Shown: one piece after another, positions 1 through 54,890 of the stretch
Numbering within the stretch: position 1 is the first letter of the stretch
How the letters are laid out: every line of letters starts with the position of its first letter
Assembly: GCA_001779315.1 (NCBI GenBank)
Contig: MFJU01000035.1
Location: forward strand, 61,255-116,544
Reading direction: 5' to 3'
DNA: 55,290 nt
DNA from: Candidatus Gottesmanbacteria bacterium RIFCSPLOWO2_01_FULL_42_22
GTDB lineage: Bacteria > Patescibacteriota > Microgenomatia > 2-02-FULL-39-11
Notes under the pieces: model-generated
Seen by the model: only the letters and a program-made list of their open reading frames with translations
Told to the model about the DNA's origin: nothing
The model's database searches: none
Translations under genes and position numbers: made by a program

Positions 1-753
1 GATGGCGGTGACGAAACATTCGCCGGTTACCCCCGCTATCTCTTTTACCTTTATTATCCGTACCTCCATCTTCTGCCGGCCGGTTTATTGGCCTCTTTTT
101 TCTCCGGTCTTTATAAATTCAGATCTAACCGCAATTTTTCCCTTCTGGCTGACAAATATTTGCCCTCATTGAAAATGAGGAAGTTTGCAGGCTATCTTTC
201 CACGGTTGAATGGGTAAGCGGAATTCAAAAGAAAAAGCTGCTTCTGCAAAAAATCCCGGATCGGTCCGACGTACGTCGGACTCCCGGATCGAAAAGCCTG
301 GATGGGATTCTGCGTTTTGATTCTTTGACATATTTGCCGGATTATCTTTTGGTCAAGACTGATATTGCCTCGATGCACCACTCCCTGGAAGTCCGCTCTC
401 CGTTTCTTGATCATCTATTTTTTGAGACTGCCGCCAGATTGCCTGAAAGTGACAAAATCCGGGGACTGACCTCGAAATATTTATTGAGAAAGCTCCTGAA
501 AGAAGTCCTGCCGCAAGTAAAACTCAAAAGAAAACACGGTTTCCTGCCGCCACTTTCCTCATGGTTCAGGGGAAAATACAGCCGGCAACTGAAAGATGAA
601 ATAACCGATGCCAATTTCCGTGCAATTTCTTATCTTAATCATCCATACGTTGACAGGCTTTACCGGGAACATTTATCATGCCGGCATGACCATTCGGGAA
701 TACTTTGGACTTTACTATGCTTGAAAAACTGGCACCGCCAATTCGCTTTTTAG
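1..753 (+). CDS. asnB: Asparagine synthase (glutamine-hydrolysing), C-terminal part, truncated by window edge
   Basis: The reading frame is open from base 1 and starts inside the ATP-pyrophosphatase motif (DGGDE of SGDGGDE), so the glutaminase domain lies outside the window. Conserved AsnB features follow: YLPDYLLVKTD, then SMHHSLEVRSPFLDH, then KRKHGF. The family transfers glutamine nitrogen to an acyl-adenylate, usually aspartate. Next to O-antigen ligase and glycosyltransferase genes, paralogs often act in surface polysaccharide amidation; lasso-peptide cyclases belong to the same superfamily. A palindromic insertion at 254-291 falls in the coding frame. The stop overlaps the next gene, implying translational coupling. 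The family is certain; the exact role is not. Confidence 0.9.
   Translation, partial: DGGDETFAGYPRYLFYLYYPYLHLLPAGLLASFFSGLYKFRSNRNFSLLADKYLPSLKMRKFAGYLSTVEWVSGIQKKKLLLQKIPDRSDVRRTPGSKSLDGILRFDSLTYLPDYLLVKTDIASMHHSLEVRSPFLDHLFFETAARLPESDKIRGLTSKYLLRKLLKEVLPQVKLKRKHGFLPPLSSWFRGKYSRQLKDEITDANFRAISYLNHPYVDRLYREHLSCRHDHSGILWTLLCLKNWHRQFAF
254..291. repeat. 18-bp perfect palindrome flanked by 10-bp direct repeats, inside asnB
   Basis: Bases 264-281 form a perfect palindrome (GTCCGACGTACGTCGGAC). It is bracketed by two identical 10-mers, TCCCGGATCG, at 254-263 and 282-291. It is translated in frame as a short charged stretch between conserved AsnB blocks. This looks like an inserted palindromic unit rather than ancestral coding sequence. 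No second copy of the palindrome was seen in the window. Confidence 0.7.
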
Positions 754-2105
754 CCTCGCTCCTGATATTTTTCACTCTTATCATTCTTACACCCAATAAA
801 ATTATTTATTTCAGCGCCTACCCGGCAGCTGTTTTACTTTTTTATTTATCGGTACAAGATCTGCGCCGATCCCTGCTTTTAGCCATGATACTGGCTGTTT
901 TTTCCGATGTCTATTTAGGGGCCGGTCTGTTCCGGCTGGAACCGGCCGGCTTTAATATGGGATCGGGCTGGTGGATTTCTCCGGTGACTATATTAATGCC
1001 TGTAATGCTTTTATTTTCACTGAAAGTTAAACTCAAAAAAAATCCTGCCGATATTTTTCTGCTGCTGTTTTTCGTCTGGTCGGCGCTGACTTTTACGTTT
1101 AATACCGACCAAAATTCATTTTACGGAATGATTGCCCTTTCCGAATCAGTCCTGCTCTATTTTTTATTCAGGCTTTACCTGAAGAAAGAAGACCAGCCCT
1201 TTTTAACCGCTTTGTTTTTGGCCATTTTACTTTTTCAAACATTTATCGGCCTCTGGCAATTTTATCTGGGGCGCCCCATTGGTTTAATCGCCGAATCCAT
1301 CATTGCCGATAATCCGGCCGGCATCACGACAAGTGAAAACATCCGCCTTTTCAGAATTAGCGGCACTTTCGGACATCCCAATGTTCTGGCTGCTTTTCTG
1401 CTGGTTCTATACCCTTTTTTGGACTTGTTTAAAAGCATAAAATCTTGGGCAAATACTTTTAGGTCTATGGTAATTTTAGCCTTTATTTTTACTTTCAGCC
1501 GCCTGGCCTGGGTTGTTTTATTGATAGTCCATCTAATTTTCAGCTATTCGCTGCCTTACTCAATAGCCATTGACCGGTTCAGAAAAAAATTTCATTTGAA
1601 CAGAAAAGCCGTCATTTATCTGTCAACGGTTTTAATCATAATTTATCTTTTATTTCCGTACATACTGCTCAGGTTTAAGACGATACCGGCTTCACTGGAT
1701 GAGTTTGGATCTTTAGGGACGAGGGTAAAACTGGACCAGGAAGCAATTGCACTGATTAAAAAAAATCCACTGGTCGGTACAGGCTTAAACAAATCGCTTG
1801 AGAGTTACATCAGACAACCTTCTACTAACATCTTTGAAAACAACCCGCCCGGTATTTTTTACAAGATCCACAATACTTTTTTGGAAATAACGGCAGAGAC
1901 AGGAATTCCCGGCCTTTTACTTTTCGTTCTTTTTTTAGTTTCTGTCATAAGAAGCGGTTCCGCAATATTTTCGGCTAAAGCGGCATTGCCCACTGCTGCC
2001 TATTACGGATTGTTAAGTTTGATCATCATAAGTTATGTCAACCCTTTTTTTCATACCAGCGTCTTAAAATGGCTTTTTTTGCTATCGTCTATTCTTTTGA
2101 TTTAA
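717..2105 (+). CDS. O-antigen ligase/polymerase-like (Wzy_C) membrane protein
   Basis: About 462 residues, almost entirely hydrophobic with roughly ten or more membrane segments. A central extracytoplasmic stretch follows FRISGTFGHPNVLAA, the typical family region around the catalytic loop. A second conserved block, GTGLNKSLESY...HNTFLEITAETGIPGL, matches Wzy_C/RfaL-like ligases, which move lipid-linked glycans onto acceptors or polymerise repeat units. ATG 717 overlaps the end of asnB by 37 nt; a TTG at 705 is an alternative in-frame start. No Shine-Dalgarno is evident, fitting translational coupling. The substrate cannot be told from sequence. Confidence 0.85.
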   Translation: MLEKLAPPIRFLASLLIFFTLIILTPNKIIYFSAYPAAVLLFYLSVQDLRRSLLLAMILAVFSDVYLGAGLFRLEPAGFNMGSGWWISPVTILMPVMLLFSLKVKLKKNPADIFLLLFFVWSALTFTFNTDQNSFYGMIALSESVLLYFLFRLYLKKEDQPFLTALFLAILLFQTFIGLWQFYLGRPIGLIAESIIADNPAGITTSENIRLFRISGTFGHPNVLAAFLLVLYPFLDLFKSIKSWANTFRSMVILAFIFTFSRLAWVVLLIVHLIFSYSLPYSIAIDRFRKKFHLNRKAVIYLSTVLIIIYLLFPYILLRFKTIPASLDEFGSLGTRVKLDQEAIALIKKNPLVGTGLNKSLESYIRQPSTNIFENNPPGIFYKIHNTFLEITAETGIPGLLLFVLFLVSVIRSGSAIFSAKAALPTAAYYGLLSLIIISYVNPFFHTSVLKWLFLLSSILLI

Positions 2106-4082: not shown

Positions 4083-5360
4083 TCAGGATTTAATAAAGAA
4101 AAATATTTTACGGTAAGTACGCCTGGCAAAATTGACCGTCAATTTATACGGGATATAGATGATTGAGTTGATGACCGAAGGGTAAAAAATGACCCTCAGT
4201 TTTTTGGGTAGAGGCTCCGGTGACAGATAAAAGATATTGCTGAAACGCTTTCTTCCGGCGCTAATTTGACCAGCCTCGCTTTCCAAAAGGTTTCCCGAAG
4301 TTAATTTTTTTATAAGTCTTAATTTATTACCTAAAGGTTTTATTTTATTAAGAAATCCAACCGGTATTGAAAAGGGATAATATTTTTCGAGAAGTAAAAA
4401 AGAAGGATAGACAAAATTCTCCAAGCGGTATTCCAAAATTTGTTTTAGCAGTCCCTGCCAATCCCCTTTCAGTTTTCGGCAAGCGGAACGCATGAGAGCC
4501 AGGCGGAAATAACCGCTGAAACTGTGATGGAAGAAATGAAGCGCCAGATAGAGGATTTGATGTTCGGCTGACAGCAGGTTAAATTTGATATTTTTATATT
4601 TAAAGATGCTTTTCCTCGCTAAAAACAATTCAGTTAATTTATTTATCTGTTTTTGGGGATAGAGGGCATCGAGGCCTGATATTTGGTTCATCAGAAATGC
4701 CGGTTCGCGGTGGATATCCAAAACAACCGGCCAAAGGGAAGTTTTTTTTATAAAAACAGTTTCCGTCGGCACTTTTTTAAAGAGTTTAAATATCGGGGAA
4801 TATGAAGAATCCACGCTTTGAAAACCTCTCTTCTGAAGGGCAACCGAAGCCGTTTGGTAATCTTTCGGAGAAATGAGGAGATCACAGTCAGCATAAAGCC
4901 GTTGAGGCAGATTTTTCTGCAAAAATAAATAAAGCGGCAGGCCTTTCAGAAATACATAGTCCACTTTTTTCCGGTTAAAAGCTTGGGTTATTTTTGCCAG
5001 CTCTTTCAAATAACTGTCCGCCTGAATCAGGTAGTAATCTTTTACTCTTAGAGACTGTCCTTTTCTGGTAAAATAGGTCAGGCGGGCATGAACATTTTGC
5101 GACGGGATATGGCCGTCTGATTTAAAGTTATGGTCTCCTTTGGTTATTAGATATTTTGTTGATTTATAAATTACCCGGTGGATCATAAATTGCCTCTTTT
5201 TTTCTACCATAATTAATTCGTCTTCCTTAACTTTGTCAAAACGGCTTTTTTTGAGATGGAGGACATCTCCGGGTCTTATTATCGGCAGCATGCTGGTTCC
5301 ATCCGCTTTGAGGGAAAAACGGGACATCTTGACTAATTTTTTAAGAAGTCTGTATTGCAT
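4083..5360 (-). CDS. Fusion of S24/S26 signal-peptidase-like domain with NTP_transf_5 nucleotidyltransferase
   Basis: 425 residues in two parts. Residues 12-100 look like an S26 peptidase of the SipW/archaeal type: GTSMLP with the candidate nucleophile Ser23, RPGDV, IHRVI with His61 where the bacterial type has Lys, and TKGDHN (74-79). No membrane helix is seen. Residues about 115-370 resemble the uncharacterised nucleotidyltransferase family PF14907: VDYVFLKGLPLYLF, then ADCDLLISP with acidic metal-ligand candidates Asp158 and Asp160. In other bacteria such nucleotidyltransferases, S24/S26-like proteins, PqqD and HprK-like kinases occur together in glycan and lasso-peptide loci. It is divergent from the next ligase gene with a 32-bp gap. 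Substrate unknown. Confidence 0.72.
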   Translation of the reverse strand: MQYRLLKKLVKMSRFSLKADGTSMLPIIRPGDVLHLKKSRFDKVKEDELIMVEKKRQFMIHRVIYKSTKYLITKGDHNFKSDGHIPSQNVHARLTYFTRKGQSLRVKDYYLIQADSYLKELAKITQAFNRKKVDYVFLKGLPLYLFLQKNLPQRLYADCDLLISPKDYQTASVALQKRGFQSVDSSYSPIFKLFKKVPTETVFIKKTSLWPVVLDIHREPAFLMNQISGLDALYPQKQINKLTELFLARKSIFKYKNIKFNLLSAEHQILYLALHFFHHSFSGYFRLALMRSACRKLKGDWQGLLKQILEYRLENFVYPSFLLLEKYYPFSIPVGFLNKIKPLGNKLRLIKKLTSGNLLESEAGQISAGRKRFSNIFYLSPEPLPKKLRVIFYPSVINSIIYIPYKLTVNFARRTYRKIFFFIKS

Positions 5361-19875: not shown

Positions 19876-22512
19876 ATGAATTACTCATTCAGCACACGTT
19901 ACCGCCGGATAAGGATCAACCCCCGCTCATCCAAACAATCAAAGTGGATTTACCGGAGCCGGGTCCTGAAAGTCAGACTTCTTAATTTCCTGTTTAGCTA
20001 TATCTGGTATATCCTGGGAGGATCGGTCGTCTTTTTATTGCTTCTGTTTGCCGTTTATTCCAGGGATCTTCCCTCGCCAGAGAAAATCAAAAGGCGTGAA
20101 GGTTTTTCGACGGTGATACTGGACCGCAACCACAAAACTATTTATGACATTTTCACCGACCGGAACACCATTCCCATAAAATTTACAGAAATGCCCGATC
20201 ATTTGAAGAAAGCAACTATCGCCATTGAGGATAAGGATTTTTATAAACATCAGGGTTTCTCGACACGCGGAGTCATCCGCGCCATAATTAATATATTGAC
20301 TTTTAAGGGCCTCCAGGGAGGCTCCACCCTGACCCAGCAGCTGGTCAAAAACGTGCTGTTGACCTCGGAAAGGACTTTGCCCCGGAAATTCAAGGAATTT
20401 ATTCTGGCAGTTGAGATAGAAAGGAAGTATTCCAAGGACGAGATTCTGCAGATGTATCTGAATGAGGCTCCTTACGGCGGGACGATGTGGGGAATTGAGT
20501 CAGCCGCCCAGGGTTATTTCGGCAAAAGTACGCGCGAACTGGATTTATTGGAATCGGTCATTCTGGCCGGATTGCCGCAAAGGCCAAGCTACTATTCGCC
20601 GTTTAATGCCAGTAACGAGGCCTATAAGCAAAGAAGCGAGGAAGTTTTGCGCCGGATGCGGGAGGACGGTTATATTTCTCAAAAAGAGGAAAAGGATTAT
20701 AAAAAGCAGCTTTCCGAATATAAATTCAACAAAAGCAGTCTCTCTTTCAGGGCTCCTCATTTTGTCGAATACGTCAAAAAGCAGCTGATTGACAAATTCG
20801 GCGAGAAAAAAGTCGAACAAGGCGGCTTGAAAGTGGTGACTACTCTCGATTTGGAGCTGCAAAAAAAAGCCGAAGAAATTATTTTTGAAGAGACGGAAAA
20901 AGTTAAGAACTTAAAGGTAGGCAACGGTGCGGCAGTTGTCATAGATCCTGCCACAGGCGACATTTTAGCCTACGTCGGCAGCCGCGAGTATGAATCCGAA
21001 GACAGTCAATTTCAGGGGAAATTTGATGTGGTCAGTATGGGTTTGCGACAGCCCGGCAGTGCTTTAAAACCGATTACCTACGCGGTAGCCTTTGCCAATA
21101 ATTACACTCCGGCCACTTTAATCATGGATGTTGAAACCAAATTTCCGGGAGGAACTAATCTGCCGGATTATATTCCGAAAAACTATGACGGCAAGTTCCG
21201 CGGGCCGGTCCAGCTGCGTTTTGCCTTGGGCAATTCCATCAATCTGCCGGCAGTGAAATTAACGGCTTTGGTAGGTATCAGGAAAATTCTGGAAACAGCA
21301 TATGAATTAGGCCTGTCCACATTGAAACCCACTTCCGAAAATGAAAACCGCCTCGGTCTTTCCATTACTTTGGGAGGCGGGGAAGTGAAATTGTTGGAAC
21401 TGACTTCAGCCTACGGGGTTTTTGCTACAGGCGGTATCAGGTATGAACCGCTTGCCATCCTGAAAGTCACCGATACCAATGATAAAATTCTTTTTGAGCA
21501 TAAAAAAACATCCGGCAAACGGGTTTTGGCTGAGGATGTTTCATTCCTGGTTAATCATATTCTGCTGGATAATATAGCCCGCCAGGAAGTTTTCGGTGAA
21601 AGAAGCTATCTGGTTATCCCCGGAAAGACCGTCTCTGTCAAAACCGGTACCACCGATGATAAAAAAGACAACTGGGCCATCGGCTACACCCCGTATGCCG
21701 TGGCCGGGGTTTGGGTGGGCAATAACGACAATACTCCGATGGATCCTAGATTGGCTTCCGGAGCAACCGGGGCCTCACCCATTTGGAACCGTCTGATGAG
21801 GGAAATCACCGCCGGTCATAAAGATCAAGCTTTTCCCATCCCCGGCAATATCGTTTCCTTAAATATTGACGCTTTCGGCGGTGGTCTCCCTATAGACGGC
21901 CGGCCGGCCAGAAGCGAATATTTTATCAAAGGTACCGAACCGAGCGGACCGTCTCCGATTTACAAAAAACTGAAAATTTCCAAAAACGATTCCGGTAAAC
22001 TGGCAAATCCGCTGGAAATTGCCACCGGCCAATATGAGGAGAAAGACTTTATCGTGTTCGAGGAAAAAGACCCGACGGGCAGTGACCCTAACCGCTGGCA
22101 GGAAGGCATCGATAAGTGGCTGGAAAGCCAATCCGACCCCCAATACCATCCGCCCAAAGATACGGCTGAAGGGGATGAAAATAACGTCATTGTCAATATT
22201 AAAAATCCCCAGGACTGGCAGAGAATCAACAGTAACAATCCTGAAATATCAGCGGAAGCGAAAGCCTTAAGAACGGTAACCAGGCTGGAAATATATGTCG
22301 ATGGTGATATGAAAGCTCAGGAGATTGGTAAGTCAATCAGCAAAAATATTTCAATTGCTGACGGTCTGCATAAAATCAAAATCAAAGCATACACGGAAGG
22401 AAATCACTCGGGAGAGAGGGAGATTACAGTCGGCATCAACCAGGACGCCATTGATCCAACAGTTACCGTTCAGCCTTCAAATACACCGCCGGTCAGTCCG
22501 ACTGTTTCCTAA
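19876..22512 (+). CDS. Class A penicillin-binding protein (peptidoglycan glycosyltransferase/transpeptidase)
   Basis: 878 residues. Cytoplasmic basic tail, one membrane helix (about 38-62), then glycosyltransferase family 51 domain with EDKDFYKHQGFS and GGSTLTQQLVKN. The transpeptidase domain has SxxK in RQPGSALKP, SxN in GNSINLPAVK and KTG in VKTGTTDDKKDNWAIGY. The C-terminal ~170 residues form an extra beta domain and a Thr/Pro tail. It builds and crosslinks peptidoglycan outside the membrane. A decayed copy of its C-terminal end lies at 26024-26412. Only 2 nt separate its stop from the HprK-like gene. Confidence 0.95.
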   Translation: MNYSFSTRYRRIRINPRSSKQSKWIYRSRVLKVRLLNFLFSYIWYILGGSVVFLLLLFAVYSRDLPSPEKIKRREGFSTVILDRNHKTIYDIFTDRNTIPIKFTEMPDHLKKATIAIEDKDFYKHQGFSTRGVIRAIINILTFKGLQGGSTLTQQLVKNVLLTSERTLPRKFKEFILAVEIERKYSKDEILQMYLNEAPYGGTMWGIESAAQGYFGKSTRELDLLESVILAGLPQRPSYYSPFNASNEAYKQRSEEVLRRMREDGYISQKEEKDYKKQLSEYKFNKSSLSFRAPHFVEYVKKQLIDKFGEKKVEQGGLKVVTTLDLELQKKAEEIIFEETEKVKNLKVGNGAAVVIDPATGDILAYVGSREYESEDSQFQGKFDVVSMGLRQPGSALKPITYAVAFANNYTPATLIMDVETKFPGGTNLPDYIPKNYDGKFRGPVQLRFALGNSINLPAVKLTALVGIRKILETAYELGLSTLKPTSENENRLGLSITLGGGEVKLLELTSAYGVFATGGIRYEPLAILKVTDTNDKILFEHKKTSGKRVLAEDVSFLVNHILLDNIARQEVFGERSYLVIPGKTVSVKTGTTDDKKDNWAIGYTPYAVAGVWVGNNDNTPMDPRLASGATGASPIWNRLMREITAGHKDQAFPIPGNIVSLNIDAFGGGLPIDGRPARSEYFIKGTEPSGPSPIYKKLKISKNDSGKLANPLEIATGQYEEKDFIVFEEKDPTGSDPNRWQEGIDKWLESQSDPQYHPPKDTAEGDENNVIVNIKNPQDWQRINSNNPEISAEAKALRTVTRLEIYVDGDMKAQEIGKSISKNISIADGLHKIKIKAYTEGNHSGEREITVGINQDAIDPTVTVQPSNTPPVSPTVS

Positions 22513-22514
22513 AT

Positions 22515-23321
22515 ATGACAAAATCAGATCAGGAATATTATTATTTAACTATAGGCGGATTTATTATTGAAATCTTTTTCTGTCCGCAAAAAGAAGAAGT
22601 CTGTCTAAGTCAGAGGAAAAGACTCATGTCAGAGGTTAAACAGGAGTTTTTACCTTTTTTAACGAAAAAACCGAAAACAGCAGATGCCAGGATAGAATTT
22701 CATTTCCGTATCCCGATTGTTTTTCCGTTTGACAAAAAAAAGAACCGGCTTTTTTTTATAACATATTTTATCGATGAAGGAGACAAAATACTGACTTATT
22801 ATTACCTGAATGCCTTTCAATTTTCCTATCTTTTACTTTATGTGCTTCATAAACTTCTGGTTAGACATCAGGGATTTGTCCTTCATGCATCAGCCTGCCT
22901 GATAAATGACAGGATTGATTTATTTATGGGTCCGTCAGGAGCCGGTAAAACTACTGTACTGAATAACCTTAAAAAATATTATCGGCCTTTCGCCGATGAT
23001 ACGGTAATTGTCAGAAAAAAAGGTTCTGATTTCCGGGTTTACCAGACCCCTTTGAATGAAAGTAACCGGAAAATGATTAAGGCCAGCTCAAAATCATATC
23101 GGCTTGGCAGGATTTTTTTTATTCATAAAGCCAGATCCGACCGGATTGACAAAATTGCGGAAACAGAATCAGTGATAGCAAGATTATCCAATCAATTAAG
23201 GAGTCGTAAGCAGGATAAGAGTCAACAATTTAAAACATTACTCCAGTTGGTAAATAAAAAGATTTTTTTTGAACTATATTTTAAAAAAGTTAGTGCTGAT
23301 TTAGGACAGTTATTGGTTTAA
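22515..23321 (+). CDS. HprK-like P-loop kinase, copy 1 of the peptide module
   Basis: 268 residues. The C-terminal half has the HPr kinase-like core: LHASACLI with His124, P-loop GPSGAGKT (139-146) and FADDTVIV with Asp161/162. It lacks the HprK signature downstream and the N-terminal HprK domain, so it is not a true catabolite-repression kinase. Relatives occur with PqqD proteins in glycan loci and in lasso-peptide clusters, where they phosphorylate the peptide. It starts 2 nt after the PBP stop and ends 10 nt from the convergent precursor gene. Similar in plan to the protein at 26736-27533 but strongly diverged. Confidence 0.8.
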   Translation: MTKSDQEYYYLTIGGFIIEIFFCPQKEEVCLSQRKRLMSEVKQEFLPFLTKKPKTADARIEFHFRIPIVFPFDKKKNRLFFITYFIDEGDKILTYYYLNAFQFSYLLLYVLHKLLVRHQGFVLHASACLINDRIDLFMGPSGAGKTTVLNNLKKYYRPFADDTVIVRKKGSDFRVYQTPLNESNRKMIKASSKSYRLGRIFFIHKARSDRIDKIAETESVIARLSNQLRSRKQDKSQQFKTLLQLVNKKIFFELYFKKVSADLGQLLV

Positions 23322-23331
23322 TCGTAAATAT

Positions 23332-23526
23332 TTAACAGGCACAATACCCAGTTCCCCGACAATTAGCATAACTCTGACCGCAACACGAAGCACATTCTGA
23401 GTCAGAACCGCAGGGAGGTTCACAAGCGGCGTATATTTCGTAAATCATTTCATCGAAAAAACCGAAAAGAAGGGAAATTTTTATTTTTTTAATTTTAATC
23501 CGGGGTTTCTGATATTTATTTTTCAT
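23332..23526 (-). CDS. Cys-rich RiPP-precursor-like peptide, copy 1
   Basis: 64 residues. A basic leader has YQKPRI (5-10) and KIKISLLF (14-21), then an acidic turn. The C-terminal 30 residues are rich in Gly, Ser and Cys, with cysteines at 35, 39, 45, 48, 49, 56, 62 and 64, ending CRGTGYCAC. Compared with the peptide at 27542, the block Y-x-K-P-x-[IL]-x3-K-I-K-[IL]-[SN]-L-[LF] is conserved with identical spacing while the tail differs. A constant leader with a variable Cys-rich end is typical of RiPP precursors. The ATG lies 9 nt after the stop of the membrane protein gene. A small zinc-binding or disulfide-rich secreted peptide is the alternative. Confidence 0.7.
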   Translation of the reverse strand: MKNKYQKPRIKIKKIKISLLFGFFDEMIYEIYAACEPPCGSDSECASCCGQSYANCRGTGYCAC

Positions 23527-23535
23527 TGAGTGTTT

Positions 23536-24075
23536 TTAACGGTCAGAAGCTTCTGTCAGAATTTCAAATTCATCCCCGTCTGACGGCTGATTGACCGGCA
23601 ACGAGATACGGCGTTTCAGTATGACGGATAGCCCGGGTTTCAGCTGATTAATTTCAACCGGAATTTTTTGGCCGGTTTCGTCAAGCCGATATACCCTTTT
23701 TAGAATATCTTCCTTGGATATTTCAGTACCATCAATAGCTTTATTTTGCGCGTTAACTATTTCCATAATCTGAAATCTGCCGTCATCTGATAATGCCGTT
23801 TTTTCACCCAGTTTGCCGGTTAATTGTTCGACCAGATAAAATGACTGACCGTTTTTTATGTCTTTATTCAGGAAATATTGTTTAATATCTCCCAGCATGA
23901 CCTGATTTCCTCCGCTATTGCTTATCTGATTATTTTTGGGAATTATAGTCTTGTTTTTTGCAGCGAGCGGGTTTATGGTATCTAAAAGGGTTGGATTGGT
24001 TATAAATACGTAGTAAATTAGTTCTGAGACTGTAATAAGTAATATTAGCAGAAAGGCAATTTTCAGGATTTTCAT
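23536..24075 (-). CDS. Single-pass membrane-anchored protein of the peptide module, copy 1
   Basis: 179 residues: an N-terminal membrane helix (about 5-27, with SELIYYVFIT), a polar linker, then a soluble beta-rich domain (~65-175) with LKPGLSVILKRR, a G-x-x-V-x-L strand seen also in copy 2 (LKVGDNVQL). Its helix matches that of the protein at 27745 (TIGEIIYYFIIT). It is transcribed before the Cys-rich peptide in the same operon. Role unknown: export, processing or immunity partner of the peptide are all possible. Confidence 0.6.
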   Translation of the reverse strand: MKILKIAFLLILLITVSELIYYVFITNPTLLDTINPLAAKNKTIIPKNNQISNSGGNQVMLGDIKQYFLNKDIKNGQSFYLVEQLTGKLGEKTALSDDGRFQIMEIVNAQNKAIDGTEISKEDILKRVYRLDETGQKIPVEINQLKPGLSVILKRRISLPVNQPSDGDEFEILTEASDR

Positions 24076-24127
24076 ATTATATTATGGTATATTAGATTTA
24101 AAATAATCGATAAGCGGTTATCTGTCA

Positions 24128-24143
24128 ATGAATATTATGGTCA
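24128..24143. repeat. Left target-site duplication of the IS element
   Basis: ATGAATATTATGGTCA, identical to 25601-25616 on the other side of the element. Flanking bases differ at both ends, so the duplication is exactly 16 bp. It is the first 16 bases of the PqqD gene. Confidence 0.9.
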
Positions 24144-25600
24144 TGTAGCACCAACATGAAAATGTCCTCTTTCACCAATATAGAAATGTCCGCTTTTAGG
24201 GTTCAAACTTAACTGGTTATTAAATTAACCAATAAGGGAGGAACCCGGATGAAAGGATATTTCACTATGAGCGTTAAAGAGGCAGACAGAATAGCCATCA
24301 TGGACAAGCTAATTGAGAAAAGGATTAAACAGAAACATGCCGCCTTACAGCTGAATTTATCAACAAGGCAAATAAGAAGAGTGATGAAAATATATAAAGA
24401 GGAAGGTAAATTTGGTTTAATCCATAAAAACAGGGGAAGGCAGGGAAACAGGGGTATTACCGGAGCCATAAAAGAAGAAATCATTTCTTTAATCAGCAGG
24501 AAATATCCGGACTTTGGTCCGACTCTGGCCTGTGAGAAGCTGTCTGCACTTCACGGGATATCATATTCGGATGAAACCATAAGGAAAATAATGACAGAGG
24601 GTAACCTCTGGAAAGCCAAAAATAAAAGAGTCAAAGACATTCATCCCTACCGGGAAAGAAGGGCTTGTTTGGGTGAGCTAATTCAGCTTGACGGCTCTCC
24701 GCACTTGTGGTTTGAGGACAGAGGTCCTTCCTGTACCCTTCTGGCGTTTATCGATGATGCCACTTCAAGGATCATGGATGGAATGTTTGTAGACTATGAA
24801 GGCACATTCACTCTTTTTGAGGCAACAGAGCATTATCTCTCTACCCATGGAAAGCCTCTTTCCTTTTATGTCGATAAGCATTCAACCTTCAAGATAAACA
24901 GGCAGGCTGATGTTGAAGAGGATTTAAAAGACACACAGGCACAATCACAATTTTCAAGAGCCATGAATGAGCTTTCAATTGAGGTTATCTTTGCCAATTC
25001 ACCGGAAGCAAAAGGGAGAGTAGAAAAGCTCTTTCAAACACTTCAGGACAGATTGGTTAAAGAAATGAGGCTGAAGGTAATAAAGTCAAAAGAAGAGGGA
25101 ACGAGATTTTTCAGGGAAGTATACATCCCATTCCATAACAGTAAGTTTGCGGTTGTCCCGGCAGAGAAAGCCAATCTGCATAAACCTCTTTTAGCAACTG
25201 ATGATTTAAGCAGAATATTCACAATAAGGTCAAAAAGGATGGTTACAAAGGATCTTGTTGTCAGGTACAAAAACACCAGGTATCAGCTTTTGCCGGCATC
25301 AGGCTCGCGATACACCTTAAGGCATGCTGCGGTAATAGTTGAAGAGAATAGAAAAGGCAAGATTAGTTTTATCTATAAAGATAAAACCATTGCCCACAAG
25401 ATAGCCGTCAAAGAAATTAAGCAGGCAAAACCCGTACAGGTTGCATCTTCAAAGGATTATAAAGAAAATCGTATTACAATCCCTGATTGGGATCATCCCT
25501 GGAGACAAATGGGCAGAGCACAGATAGCATTAAAAAACAGTTTATGAAAAGAGGACATTTCTAAATTGGAAATTAGCGGACATTTCTAAATTGGTTTAAC
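24144..25600 (+). mobile_element. IS1202/ISNCY-like insertion sequence, complete (1457 bp)
   Basis: Bounded by a 16-bp direct repeat. Each end carries two tandem copies of a motif close to CCAATnTAGAAATGTCC followed by G/T-C-T: left at about 24150-24175 and 24173-24200, right (inverted) at about 25550-25572 and 25575-25597. These paired terminal sites are likely transposase-binding repeats. One transposase gene fills the interior. The long target duplication fits the IS1202 group, known for duplications well above 10 bp. It has separated the PqqD gene from its original upstream region. Confidence 0.88.
24249..25547 (+). CDS. DDE transposase (IS1202/ISNCY type)
   Basis: 432 residues. An N-terminal helix-turn-helix region (about 28-60, LNLSTRQIRRVMK) precedes an RNase-H-like DDE core: Asp148 in LIQLDGSPHLWFED, Asp209 in FYVDKHSTF and Glu259 in SPEAKGRVEKLF. 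A beta domain follows (~345-400). The frame is intact, so the element may be active. Unlike most neighbours it has a strong Shine-Dalgarno (AAGGGAGG at 24234-24241, 7 nt from ATG). MSVKEADR at 24267 is a possible later start. Confidence 0.93.
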   Translation: MKGYFTMSVKEADRIAIMDKLIEKRIKQKHAALQLNLSTRQIRRVMKIYKEEGKFGLIHKNRGRQGNRGITGAIKEEIISLISRKYPDFGPTLACEKLSALHGISYSDETIRKIMTEGNLWKAKNKRVKDIHPYRERRACLGELIQLDGSPHLWFEDRGPSCTLLAFIDDATSRIMDGMFVDYEGTFTLFEATEHYLSTHGKPLSFYVDKHSTFKINRQADVEEDLKDTQAQSQFSRAMNELSIEVIFANSPEAKGRVEKLFQTLQDRLVKEMRLKVIKSKEEGTRFFREVYIPFHNSKFAVVPAEKANLHKPLLATDDLSRIFTIRSKRMVTKDLVVRYKNTRYQLLPASGSRYTLRHAAVIVEENRKGKISFIYKDKTIAHKIAVKEIKQAKPVQVASSKDYKENRITIPDWDHPWRQMGRAQIALKNSL

Positions 25601-25616
25601 ATGAATATTATGGTCA
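25601..25616. repeat. Right target-site duplication of the IS element
   Basis: Identical to 24128-24143. It forms the first five codons of the PqqD-like gene. Confidence 0.9.
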
Positions 25617-25903
25617 AAGACAAAATTGATAAGTCAATAGTCACTAAACGGAAATTTCGCCTTAAGCACGGTTTAATCACAGAAAGGATTGAAGGCAGTC
25701 TGACGGTCTTTAACGGGGAGAATTCGGAGATTATTACTTTTAACCGGACGGCCGAGGAAATCTTTAGAAAGATAAAATCCGGCTGGACAGTTATCCAAAT
25801 AGCCCGATATCTTTGCCGGAAGTATAAAGCCAGTGAAGAAATAATGGTGGAGGATATAAGAGAATTAATCCGACCTCTCATTGATAAGAAGATTCTGCTC
25901 TAA
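25601..25903 (+). CDS. PqqD-like RRE protein, copy 1; IS inserted at its start codon
   Basis: 100 residues with the PqqD pattern: FNGENSEIITFNRTAEEIFRKIKSG, TVIQIARYLCRKY, then a C-terminal helix pair ending IDKKILL. PqqD domains (RiPP recognition elements) bind leader peptides and present them to modifying enzymes; PqqD-like proteins also accompany HprK-like kinases in glycan loci. The first 16 bases are the right target duplication, so the ATG and protein are intact but the native promoter lies 1.4 kb away beyond the IS. A second ATG at 25610 could serve. Expression now depends on the IS end, unless it is silent. Confidence 0.8.
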   Translation: MNIMVKDKIDKSIVTKRKFRLKHGLITERIEGSLTVFNGENSEIITFNRTAEEIFRKIKSGWTVIQIARYLCRKYKASEEIMVEDIRELIRPLIDKKILL

Positions 25904-25915
25904 AAATAGCCGATA

Positions 25916-26023
25916 TTATTTGCTATTGAGTTGTAGTCCGTATTTAATTTGAATCAGGTTTTTGCTTTTATTCCTTAAATTCTCAATTTCTTTCTTTTCC
26001 AGATTACGCTCAGGGTGCTGATA
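25916..26023 (-). pseudogene. Remnant of a duplicated pheT 3' end
   Basis: Read on the minus strand this gives QYQHPERNLEKKEIENLRNK and about 16 more residues to a TAA at 25918-25916. It aligns with the PheT C-terminus encoded at 28323-28450 (RYRHPERNLNKNEVEDIRQQ). Only the last ~36 codons remain, with no start. It abuts a PBP remnant of opposite orientation at about 26024, which marks a duplication junction. Confidence 0.85.
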
Positions 26024-26412
26024 CTGGTGGAAATTGCCACCGGCCAGTATGAGGAAAAAGACTTTATCGTGTTCAAGGAAAAAGATCCGACCGGAGGTGA
26101 TACTAACCGCTGGCAGGAAAGCATCGATAAGTGGCCGGAAACACAAAGCGATCCTTTGAATAAATATCCGAAAGACCAGTCTTCATCCAATCAGACGGAA
26201 ATCTCAAGGAAACAAGCGGCGGCAGCTCCATCAATAAAACCATTCAGTTGGACAACGGGGTAAGATTAATAAAAGTCAAAGCGACAGCTTCGGGGGGCAA
26301 AACAGGCGAAGCGGAGATAATAGTGGGCATCAACACCGATCCCAATTTTGTCAGCCCGACTCCCGCACCACCGAGTGCCACGGCAGCTCTTCCCAGTCCA
26401 ACATCGCTCTAG
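26024..26412 (+). pseudogene. Remnant of a duplicated PBP C-terminus
   Basis: EIATGQYEEKDFIVFKEKDP at the left matches the intact PBP (DNA from about 22015) closely. The frame then shifts: from about 26200 a second frame gives LDNGVRLIKVKATASGGKTG and EAEIIVGINTDPN, matching the PBP end SIADGLHKIKIKA...REITVGINQD. About 100-150 bp of the intact gene are missing between the two parts. It ends in a Pro/Ser/Thr tail and TAG at 26410-26412. It lacks all catalytic domains. The following bases (AATATGATAAAAT) still resemble those at the start of the copy-1 HprK-like gene. Confidence 0.88.
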
Positions 26413-26466
26413 GTCTGTTTTTCGTAGAATATGATAAAATGAATCCGAAAAAAGCGCCAATAATTC

Positions 26467-26739
26467 ATGAACAGAATCATTATTAATAAAGAGCTGGTTA
26501 GCCAGACGATGGGCAAAAAAATTATCATCTTTGACGGTGAAAAATCACTCCTTTTTACCCTTAACGGTACAGGAGCTGTAATTTTTAATAAATTACAGAA
26601 AGGATTAAACACACAGGAAATTAAAAGTTATCTGCAAAAAAAATACGGTTTAACAAAAGTTCAAGCTAAACGGGACGTTGATAATTTTATATCTGTTTTA
26701 CTTAAAAAGAAAATTATCAAAATCAGCAATACTTCATGA
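26467..26739 (+). CDS. PqqD-like RRE protein, copy 2
   Basis: 90 residues: FDGEKSLLFTLNGTGAVIFNKLQKG, then TQEIKSYLQKKYGL and a final helix ending KKKIIKI. This is the PqqD winged-helix pattern with the LNGTGAVIF segment characteristic of the family. It overlaps the HprK-like gene by 4 nt (ATGA), so RRE and kinase are co-translated. No radical SAM gene follows. It is the clean, uninterrupted copy and the likely working partner of the peptide at 27542. Confidence 0.83.
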   Translation: MNRIIINKELVSQTMGKKIIIFDGEKSLLFTLNGTGAVIFNKLQKGLNTQEIKSYLQKKYGLTKVQAKRDVDNFISVLLKKKIIKISNTS

Positions 26740-27533
26740 TAAAGACAGTCAAAACGATTAATCTGAAAATCGCTAATTTTCCCATTAAACTTGTTTTTCA
26801 TCCGACCGACTGGCCGGCTAACCGTGATCATCTCATTCAGGAAGTATTATTTATGCTTTCCGGATTTATGGTCAAAACATCTCCGAAAAAAACCGGAATC
26901 AAAATACATTTTATCGACAGGCTGAATTTGAATATTTTAAGCAATAAAGCCGGCAATAAGAATTTTATTAATTTTTATGAATACCGGAGAAAAAAAAGTT
27001 ATACCTCCTTTTATCATATCGGTATAATACAGCTGAATATCATTATAAGAACAATTCTGCAGAATTTCCTGGCTGACAGCAATGGACTGATCATTCACGG
27101 TTCGGCAGTATTAAACGGTCGTCAGGCCTATATCTTTTTAGGCAGATCGGGCGCCGGAAAATCCACCATCATGAATCTTTTGGCTGATAAATACAAACCG
27201 TTAGCTGATGATACCATTATCATAAAAAAAGAAAATAAACGTTATTACCTCTATCAGACGCCAATGATGGATAAGCAGGCCTGGGTTAAAAAGACCAGCA
27301 GAAAATATGCGGTCGGAAAATTATTTTTTCTGCGCCAAAAAGACAGCTATACCTGCAAAAAAATCAAGAATAAGAATTCAATCACGAAAAAAATGATCAA
27401 GGTTTTCTTTACAAACAAAAACCACAGCAAAAAACAAATGAAATTTCTGCTGGAATTTATCAGCCGTAATGATTTATTTTACGATCTCTATTCAGGTTTA
27501 GACAAAAAGAAAGTCTTTGATTTATTCTCCTGA
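26736..27533 (+). CDS. HprK-like P-loop kinase, copy 2 of the peptide module
   Basis: 265 residues. C-terminal kinase core: IIHGSAVLNG with His121, P-loop GRSGAGKS (136-143), PLADDTIIIKK with Asp158/159 and YLYQTPMMD. Copy 1 has the matching series HASACLIND, GPSGAGKT, FADDTVIV, VYQTPLNE. The N-terminal ~110 residues are family-specific and may bind the substrate. Known relatives phosphorylate lasso peptides or have unknown glycan-linked roles. It ends 8 nt before the convergent precursor gene. Confidence 0.82.
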   Translation: MIKTVKTINLKIANFPIKLVFHPTDWPANRDHLIQEVLFMLSGFMVKTSPKKTGIKIHFIDRLNLNILSNKAGNKNFINFYEYRRKKSYTSFYHIGIIQLNIIIRTILQNFLADSNGLIIHGSAVLNGRQAYIFLGRSGAGKSTIMNLLADKYKPLADDTIIIKKENKRYYLYQTPMMDKQAWVKKTSRKYAVGKLFFLRQKDSYTCKKIKNKNSITKKMIKVFFTNKNHSKKQMKFLLEFISRNDLFYDLYSGLDKKKVFDLFS

Positions 27534-27541
27534 AAAGCCAT

Positions 27542-27742
27542 TTAACAATGGTTACAACTGGGTGGTGGATCAGGACCACATGGGTCACAATAACTTGCGG
27601 CATTGACCGTACCGATAAATAAGTCTTCATTGGGTAGATATTCAAACGGGTAAGAAAAGAGGTTTAATTTGATTTTGGAAACAGCTAATTCCGGCTTGCG
27701 GTAATTTCTGGACAATTTTTTAGATCTGCGGACTTTATTCAC
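27542..27742 (-). CDS. Cys-containing RiPP-precursor-like peptide, copy 2
   Basis: 66 residues starting with GTG 27742, 2 nt after the upstream stop. The basic leader contains YRKPEL (14-19), an exact YxxPxL match, and KIKLNLF (23-29); then YPFEYLPNEDLFIGTVNAAS. The last 15 residues hold four cysteines (52, 55, 63, 66) among Pro, Asp and Gly and end CNHC. YxxPxL is the lasso-leader motif bound by PqqD-like RRE proteins. The tail lacks the Gly1 plus acidic residue 7-9 layout of classic lasso cores, so another modification is likelier. It could be a metal-binding peptide instead. Confidence 0.7.
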   Translation of the reverse strand: MNKVRRSKKLSRNYRKPELAVSKIKLNLFSYPFEYLPNEDLFIGTVNAASYCDPCGPDPPPSCNHC

Positions 27743-27744
27743 AA

Positions 27745-28257
27745 TTATTCAATTTTATAAATTTCATAACTTTCGGCCTGTTGGGGATCAAGCGGAGAGA
27801 AATAAGGATTGTAAGTTTCATTTAACTGCACGTTGTCCCCGACTTTTAATTCGCCGGTCTTTATTGGCTTTAGGTTATCACCTGATTTTGAAAATACTTT
27901 GACTTTTTTATAGAGATAGTCGGGAAAAAGCATCCAAAATTCTCTGCCGTTGGACGTAATAAGCTCCATGGCAAACGGGTAAAAAGAACCTCCGGATTCC
28001 CTGCCGTCATAAGCGATGTCCTTGATTTTGGTTTGAAACTCCGTTTTAACGGTTATTTTGCTATTTGGATCGTAGGCATATTTAGCGAACATCGACAGAG
28101 TATCCGGGTGGATAGCTGGAGTTACCGATATGCTTGGAGTTAAATTACTTTTACCAAGCGGAAACTTAATCTGCTTGGTGATTATAAAGTAATAAATAAT
28201 TTCACCGATGGTCAGTACCAGCAGGAGTGCAAAAATTGCTTTTAAAAGTTTATGCAT
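27745..28257 (-). CDS. Single-pass membrane-anchored protein of the peptide module, copy 2
   Basis: 170 residues: membrane helix at about 7-27 (LLLVLTIGEIIYYFIIT), a Ser/Thr/Pro linker, then a beta-rich extracytoplasmic domain with TGELKVGDNVQLNETYNPY near the end. It is first in a two-gene minus-strand operon with the precursor 2 nt behind, as in copy 1. The two membrane proteins share helix and domain plan but little sequence. The constant pairing with a Cys-rich peptide suggests a joint function. Confidence 0.62.
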   Translation of the reverse strand: MHKLLKAIFALLLVLTIGEIIYYFIITKQIKFPLGKSNLTPSISVTPAIHPDTLSMFAKYAYDPNSKITVKTEFQTKIKDIAYDGRESGGSFYPFAMELITSNGREFWMLFPDYLYKKVKVFSKSGDNLKPIKTGELKVGDNVQLNETYNPYFSPLDPQQAESYEIYKIE

Positions 28258-54824: not shown

Positions 54825-54890
54825 AGCGGCGGAAGGGATTTGAACCCTCGACCTCCCCGCCTTTGGCGGGGCATTCTACCGCTGAACACT
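54825..54890 (-). pseudogene. tRNA-Gly pseudogene with lost acceptor 5' strand and altered anticodon arm
   Basis: Minus strand. D-arm (GTTCAGCGGTAGAATG), T-arm and acceptor 3' strand (GGTTCAAATCCCTTCCGCCG) equal tRNA-Gly, but the 5' acceptor strand GCGGCGG is absent. The anticodon arm is replaced by CCCCGCC-AAA-GGCGGGG, which has no usable anticodon loop. It is tandem with the intact tRNA-Gly (TCC), 2 nt away. Confidence 0.85.

Follow-up and report, generated by a model that had tools for sequence, protein, structure and literature searches.

The LPP family combines a SipW-like peptidase (LppS), a recognition element for ribosomally synthesized and post-translationally modified peptides (RiPP recognition element, RRE; LppB), a kinase (LppK), an NTP transferase (LppN) and an MsbA-like transporter; its precursors carry a YxxP leader ahead of variable C-termini, and its loci lie within capsule loci (Popov et al. 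2026, PMC13381572). LppK polyphosphorylates Ser3 of the core, LppS, a SipW/Sec11-type peptidase with Ser, His and Asp, removes the leader together with LppB, and LppN had no detected activity; the family is stated to be restricted to Bacillota (PMC13381572). In the related setting of the lasso peptide pseudomycoidin, a kinase and then a nucleotidyltransferase yield a phosphoglycosylated product, and the transferase sometimes forms one protein with the leader peptidase (PMC8498205). Here we describe a stretch of 55,290 nucleotides from Candidatus Gottesmanbacteria bacterium RIFCSPLOWO2_01_FULL_42_22 (contig MFJU01000035.1, positions 61,255 to 116,544; hereinafter the window), which codes for two sets of a PqqD-like protein, an HprK-like kinase, a short Cys-rich peptide and a membrane-anchored partner (MP). 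We consider it likely that these constitute a duplicated, leader-guided phosphopeptide RiPP system that works like the LPP of Bacillota.

Both sets sit between a PBP gene and pheT, and all eight genes that an initial annotation had proposed for them are open frames (Table 1). Copy B is compact, with pqqD-B and hprK-B overlapping by 4 bp and pepB and MP-B facing them. Copy A is split up: hprK-A is opposite pepA and MP-A, and an ISNCY-type insertion sequence (IS) stands between these genes and pqqD-A. Thus, the claim that a PqqD-like protein accompanies each copy holds as to the presence of both, but PqqD-A is parted from the rest of its copy by the IS. In the source genome (1.42 Mb, 93% complete) PqqD-A and PqqD-B are the sole PqqD matches. 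Homology identifies the named relatives as Candidatus Gottesmanbacteria and other Microgenomates; the class was sampled with 374 genomes, of which 15 belong to the same family (f1). G and L numbers below are our labels for genomes and loci.

The precursor peptides are real and conserved. pepB and its homologue in G008, a genome of the same genus, share 51% amino acid identity with a dN of 0.42 and a dS near saturation at 2.4, and in an alignment of the family's eight precursors Y, P, K, A and C are invariant. A profile built from this alignment matches 16 of the 374 genomes, including members of families f6, f17, f29 and f42, and a widened leader profile matches 23 in six families, which bears out the initial proposal of a RiPP-type module with conserved precursors. 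Tyr and Pro are invariant across 34 leaders. The last leader residues before the core are [L/V/I/Y/A/M]-x-A, with S or V in place of A in some cases. The predicted cut sites, placed by eye, obey the −3/−1 rule, with Ala at −1 in 33 of 36 precursors and an aliphatic residue, Tyr or Ala at −3. The leader profile has no match among PDB chains. Most cores are Cys-rich (about 20–25% Cys vs a background of 0.8%), and all 11 cores of at most 10 residues contain Ser or Thr (chance 0.001), the shortest tails having just four (ARTC, GEIS and GVVS). Elsewhere the leader is fused to Peptidase_S74 (L061, L172 and L173) or to Hint/intein-like domains (L067, L079, L161 and L171), both of which are known for self-cleavage. 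One relative, G004 (L021, L022, L053–L055), has six leader peptides and several stand-alone MP–precursor–HprK sets scattered over its genome.

The initial annotation saw no known maturase in the window, but a candidate leader peptidase is encoded at 4083–5360. Its product belongs to a family of fusion proteins, 420–430 residues long in the relatives, with an N-terminal signal-peptidase-I-like (S26) domain and a C-terminal NTP_transf_5 domain. The former scores best with the signal peptidase I model TIGR02228, under its cut-off of 51.85 bits, and matches SEC11A/C in the PDB with E-values of 1e-4 to 7e-5. Ser23, His61, Asp76, Asp82 and Asp158/Asp160 are invariant in eight fusion homologues; of these, the S26 domain retains Ser23, His61 and Asp82, which we take to be the catalytic Asp by comparison with Sec11 and LppS, and the NTP domain retains Asp158/Asp160. 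The source genome has a single match to the fusion, and in most relatives its homologues adjoin the PqqD, MP, precursor and HprK genes. These findings agree with the earlier suggestion of a shared distant enzyme, or of the kinase as the main modifying enzyme.

The kinases have ScmC as their best NCBIfam match at 28–29 bits, far under the cut-off, and score 13.6 bits with Pfam Hpr_kinase_C. An AlphaFold2 model of HprK-B (pLDDT 90.5) matches PEPCK and HPr kinase in Foldseek searches; the ranking of PEPCK over HprK, with modest TM-scores, backs the fold and not the substrate. The kinase keeps H121, G136, G139, G141, K142, S143, D158 and D159, and this H-G-G-G-K-S-D-D series is, with nearly equal spacing, the motif of the lasso peptide kinase BsfK (PMC10368454). 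Both PqqD-like proteins exceed the PF05402 cut-off of 23.4 bits. Their family profile fits the B1 proteins of lasso and LPP systems far better than PqqD itself: against the PDB it retrieves TbiB1 at 6e-14 and LppB (9x8z) at 8.6e-8 vs PqqD at 0.005, with TfuB1 and PbaB1 also matching. Membership in the pyrroloquinoline quinone pathway finds no support, the PqqD model TIGR03859 giving 20–23 bits (cut-off 46) and no radical SAM gene being linked to the module. The MP combines an N-terminal helix (residues 2–29) with a β-domain (70–169) in the AlphaFold2 model of MP-B (pLDDT 87), for which Foldseek found nothing in the PDB below E 0.001, the OB-like matches being at 0.02 and weaker.

These parts travel together. 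Among the 23 leader-positive genomes, the S26–NTP_transf_5 fusion is present in 22, HprK in 22 and PqqD in 21 (expected 1.9, 2.5 and 2.8, respectively), and 21 have all three. The exceptions are G065, in which neither the fusion nor PqqD passes the thresholds applied, and G319, which lacks PqqD and HprK and has its leader match near a contig end. Hence, the association of PqqD and HprK with the peptides in genomes of the candidate phyla radiation (CPR), on which the initial annotation staked its proposal, is not refuted; the same goes for the MP: in 36 of 45 loci a homologue of it lies directly upstream of the precursor, in the same orientation. As some of the matches had gone into building the leader profiles themselves, and the first profile came from PqqD-found loci within f1, we also applied the f1 profile to genomes outside f1, which is free of this ascertainment: the fusion is found in 10 of 10 leader-positive genomes, and PqqD and HprK in 9 of 10 each, compared to 23, 37 and 31 of 359 genomes, respectively (p 1e-13 to 5e-9). 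The genomes are phylogenetically related, so that these p-values overstate independence and the spread over six families carries more weight. HprK-like homologues occur in 40 of the 374 genomes by a strict count, PqqD in 9 of the 15 family genomes, and by contig names the system extends over Gottesmanbacteria, Roizmanbacteria, Levybacteria, Beckwithbacteria and Woesebacteria.

The gene sets of the relatives vary around this core. Minimal clusters (L100 and L155) consist of MP, two precursor genes and the fusion facing HprK and PqqD, with no other recognized maturase adjoining the operon. In other loci the leader and MP are found with HprK alone (L053–L056 and L058), with YcaO plus SagB (L153, L154 and L171) or with radical SAM enzymes (L057, L065/L151 and L169). 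Outside the class, a Nitrospinae contig (MHDQ01000258.1, L103) has between 422 and 3373 a compact operon in which a 53-aa open reading frame (ORF) with the leader-like motif YHKPQL is followed by genes for an HprK-related kinase, an S26 peptidase that stands alone, PqqD and a radical SAM enzyme. This may represent an LPP-like cluster of a further phylum, and the set of S26, RRE and kinase is thus not confined to Microgenomates and Bacillota.

The initial annotation had regarded the combination as an undescribed class; in May 2026, however, a matching part list was published as the LPP of Bacillota (PMC13381572). Both systems have a SipW-type leader peptidase, a discrete RRE, an HprK-like kinase and an NTP transferase, no lasso cyclase, glycan or capsule surroundings, and precursors of about 35–200 aa with a conserved YxxPx[V/I/L] N-terminus and a highly variable C-terminus. 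In contrast to LPP, the Microgenomates peptidase and transferase are fused, the module has a dedicated MP and mostly Cys-rich cores, and the host is a member of the Patescibacteria. There is also no MsbA-like transporter at the locus and no match to ABC_membrane (type-1 ABC exporter) in the source genome. Several observations weigh against a mode of action like that of LPP. The leaders keep YxxPx[I/L/V] but not the rest of YxxPxVLxHQxIxFETxxS, being without VLxHQxIxFET, and have Ala rather than Thr before the cut. The RREs fall outside the LppB branch in an 87-column tree with weak supports, which sets LppB apart from the main CPR group, and the transferase gene lies 18–22 kb from the two copies. 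As for the cores, one from G008, AVYCPGFCDPEACNKC, has neither Ser nor Thr, so that Ser/Thr phosphorylation is not universal (Tyr remains), and over the whole set Ser/Thr is not enriched near the cut (0.188 at positions 1–4 vs 0.195 at 11–40). The 22 of 36 cores with Ser/Thr in their first four residues are marginal (p 0.02), with a frequency no higher than in the rest of the core, and for these reasons are not used here as support. Finally, no enzyme accounting for the thiols of the Cys-rich cores was found in the source genome. Since the transporter and, more weakly, the RRE clade depart from LPP, we do not file the module as a plain member, but regard it as a working analogue of LPP that is probably also related to it.

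Other described systems share fewer of these features. The phosphorylated lasso peptides of the paeninodin, pseudomycoidin and Bsf types likewise have an RRE (B1), a kinase (K), a nucleotidyltransferase (N) and, in Bsf, a YxxPxL leader, and the occasional fusion of transferase and leader peptidase in pseudomycoidin-type systems parallels the window's fusion gene (PMC8498205); however, the B2 cysteine protease, lasso cyclase and D transporter are lacking here. Among the RiPPs of CPR bacteria, the linear azol(in)e-containing peptide (LAP) clusters with YcaO and nitroreductase (Sharrar et al. 2020, PMC7298704) also occur in Microgenomates, and several relatives join YcaO/SagB to the leader and MP, whereas the source genome has no YcaO (PF02624) and the LAP-type cluster of G008 (L174, G008:C5, 5739–9360) is a separate one with a different precursor, comprising YcaO, a SagB-like dehydrogenase, an M16 peptidase and a Pro/Cys-rich ORF of 69 aa that lacks the Y..P leader. 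The graspetides predicted in CPR bacteria (Makarova et al. 2022, PMC8939145) differ in their ATP-grasp chemistry and part list. The SynChlorMet proteins ScmC/ScmD (TIGR04249/04248) and the HPr-rel-A/B kinases (TIGR04352/04355) show the same pairing of HprK-like and PqqD-like proteins, but the scores here are far under their cut-offs. A search of the open-access literature found no description of the Microgenomates system, though this does not prove its absence.

From homology and gene context we infer how binding, phosphorylation, cleavage, group transfer, the part of the MP and any thiol chemistry of the cores might be organized. PqqD-A or PqqD-B would bind, as a discrete RRE, the YxKPx[I/L] leader of its own precursor and present it for phosphorylation by the HprK-like kinase. 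The NTP half of the fusion may add a further group, possibly sugar or nucleotidyl, to the phosphate, drawing on the nearby glycan pathway, and the S26 half would cut past [L/V/I/Y]-x-A to release the core, a single peptidase–transferase thus serving both copies. Because no ABC exporter was found, we propose that the co-transcribed MP serves to receive or tether the product, or to aid its export.

The conserved N-terminus could instead be mainly a sorting signal, with the RRE, S26 domain and MP delivering varied passengers to the cell surface and anchoring them there, and with the kinase and transferase acting on the leader, the MP or an attachment group and not on the core. The constancy of leader and MP as opposed to the core, whose tails range from four residues to Hint or Peptidase_S74 domains, the position of the MP gene directly ahead of the precursor in most loci, and the glycan-gene surroundings all speak for this. 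Yet several relatives have peptide-modifying YcaO and SagB or radical SAM maturases within the gene groups, and in LPP it is the core that the kinase phosphorylates (PMC13381572); on balance we deem such a role unlikely. The Cys content of the cores and the radical SAM/SPASM enzymes beside like precursors in L057, L065/L151 and L169 raise the further question of a thiol-crosslinked RiPP that matures mainly through a radical SAM or unseen enzyme, the kinase having an accessory role. The candidate of the source genome (L059:6505-7593, G000:C26) was rejected, as it is TIGR04133-like (330 bits), of another family and unlinked to the module; with no such enzyme seen in a genome 93% complete, although one may be missing, we view this as improbable. 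A lasso pathway with divergent cyclase and protease, suggested by the YxxPx[L/I] leader, the B1-like RRE, the lasso-type kinase and transferase and an asparagine-synthase homologue in the glycan cluster, is largely refuted and very improbable, given that lasso B2 (Transglut_core3, PF13471) occurs in none of the 15 family genomes, that the full-length homologue examined (L024:15161-17008) fits the XrtA/EPS amidotransferase TIGR03108 at 486 bits vs the lasso cyclase at 236 (cut-off 525), begins MCGI with the glutaminase Cys kept and sits among glycan genes, and that 4-aa cores are too short for a lasso ring. Separately, the "AsnB-like" proteins of L097 and L173 proved to be QueC-like.

Beyond the phosphopeptide system favored here for the window, one might tentatively see in the leader, MP and fused peptidase–nucleotidyltransferase a common Microgenomates platform for varied chemistries (kinase, YcaO/SagB or radical SAM) and passengers, i.e., tiny peptides, Cys-rich peptides and self-cleaving Hint/S74 proteins, whose products would perhaps be glycan-linked or surface-displayed rather than secreted antibiotics. 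An LPP-like part set is now placed in at least six families of a single class, within a deep lineage with hardly any cultured members, and CPR LAP and radical SAM clusters are linked to it via one leader. The fusion of peptidase and NTP transferase is a testable prompt that both act on one substrate, four-residue cores would let the modified residue be pinned down, and CPR biology gains a candidate surface peptide.

The two copies have a complex history. The ISNCY-type transposase (24249–25547, 433 bits) is part of an element flanked by a 16-bp target duplication, ATGAATATTATGGTCA, at 24128–24143 and 25601–25616. The insertion took place precisely at the start codon of pqqD-A, whose first 16 bp were duplicated, and consequently the frame was kept while the former upstream region was cut off. 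Between the copies, relics of pheT and the PBP gene lie back to back, as if two different intervals of the form PBP–module–pheT had been joined. The clearest PBP-tail relic (26028–26154) has 87% DNA identity to 22013–22139 over 127 bp, whereas copies A and B are 28–40% identical per gene, which rules out a recent tandem duplication and marks the copies as old paralogues or alleles. Copy B is nearest to G008 (HprK 59%) and copy A to G004 (PqqD 51% by BLAST, plus tree), the closest relative of PqqD-A being the PqqD of L022 in that genome. In G002 (L018) a PqqD gene likewise lies between PBP and pheT. The PBP–pheT interval may be a hot spot.

Table 1. Coordinates, strands and evidence for the features of the module and its surroundings in the window.
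Feature	Position	Strand	Evidence and remarks
HprK-like kinase A	22515-23321	+	Begins 2 bp past PBP stop; homologues in class genomes
Precursor pepA, 64 aa	23332-23526	-	Leader KYQKPRIKIKKIKISLLFGFF..IYA, core ACEPPCGSDSECASCCGQSYANCRGTGYCAC; cut site predicted; leader-family alignments
MP-A, membrane-anchored partner	23536-24075	-	Operon with pepA; N-terminal transmembrane segment and soluble domain
ISNCY-type insertion sequence	24128-25616	+	NF033594 432.8 bits, terminal inverted repeats, target-site duplication; not part of the function
PqqD-A, discrete RRE	25601-25903	+	PF05402 34 bits; frame intact
pheT 3'-end relic	about 25916-26025	-	Amino acid identity 47% (own), 58% (G008) over 32-33 aa
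PBP 3'-end relic	26028-26412	+	DNA match to own PBP gene and a further short match
PqqD-B, discrete RRE	26467-26739	+	PF05402 42 bits
HprK-like kinase B	26736-27533	+	AlphaFold2 model, Foldseek, conserved motif
Precursor pepB, 66 aa	27542-27742	-	Leader NYRKPELAVSKIKLNLF..TVNA, core ASYCDPCGPDPPPSCNHC; cut site predicted
MP-B, membrane-anchored partner	27745-28257	-	AlphaFold2 model
S26 peptidase–NTP_transf_5 fusion, shared (proposed)	4083-5360	-	PF14907 79 bits; TIGR02228 43 bits; PDB SEC11A/C matches
Surface-glycan context genes	88-2105	+	Amidotransferase tail 88-753; O-antigen-ligase-like protein 705-2105

At the far end of the window, 54833–54887 weakly resembles part of a tRNA (31 bits, gathering threshold 29); two tRNA genes lie next to it, and ARAGORN makes no call there. 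In another family, L176 and similar loci encode, next to the NTP_transf_5 gene, a 606-aa ABC protein that scores 112 bits with ABC_tran and does not match ABC_membrane. The module lies in a cluster of surface-glycan genes that code for O-antigen-ligase-like proteins, a glycosyltransferase and an XrtA-type amidotransferase, and the amidotransferase and O-antigen-ligase-like genes also adjoin it in G004, G005, G007 and G008. Within the window, 2109–2873 codes for a member of a membrane protein family without a Pfam match, which recurs in the module-side glycan cluster of most relatives.

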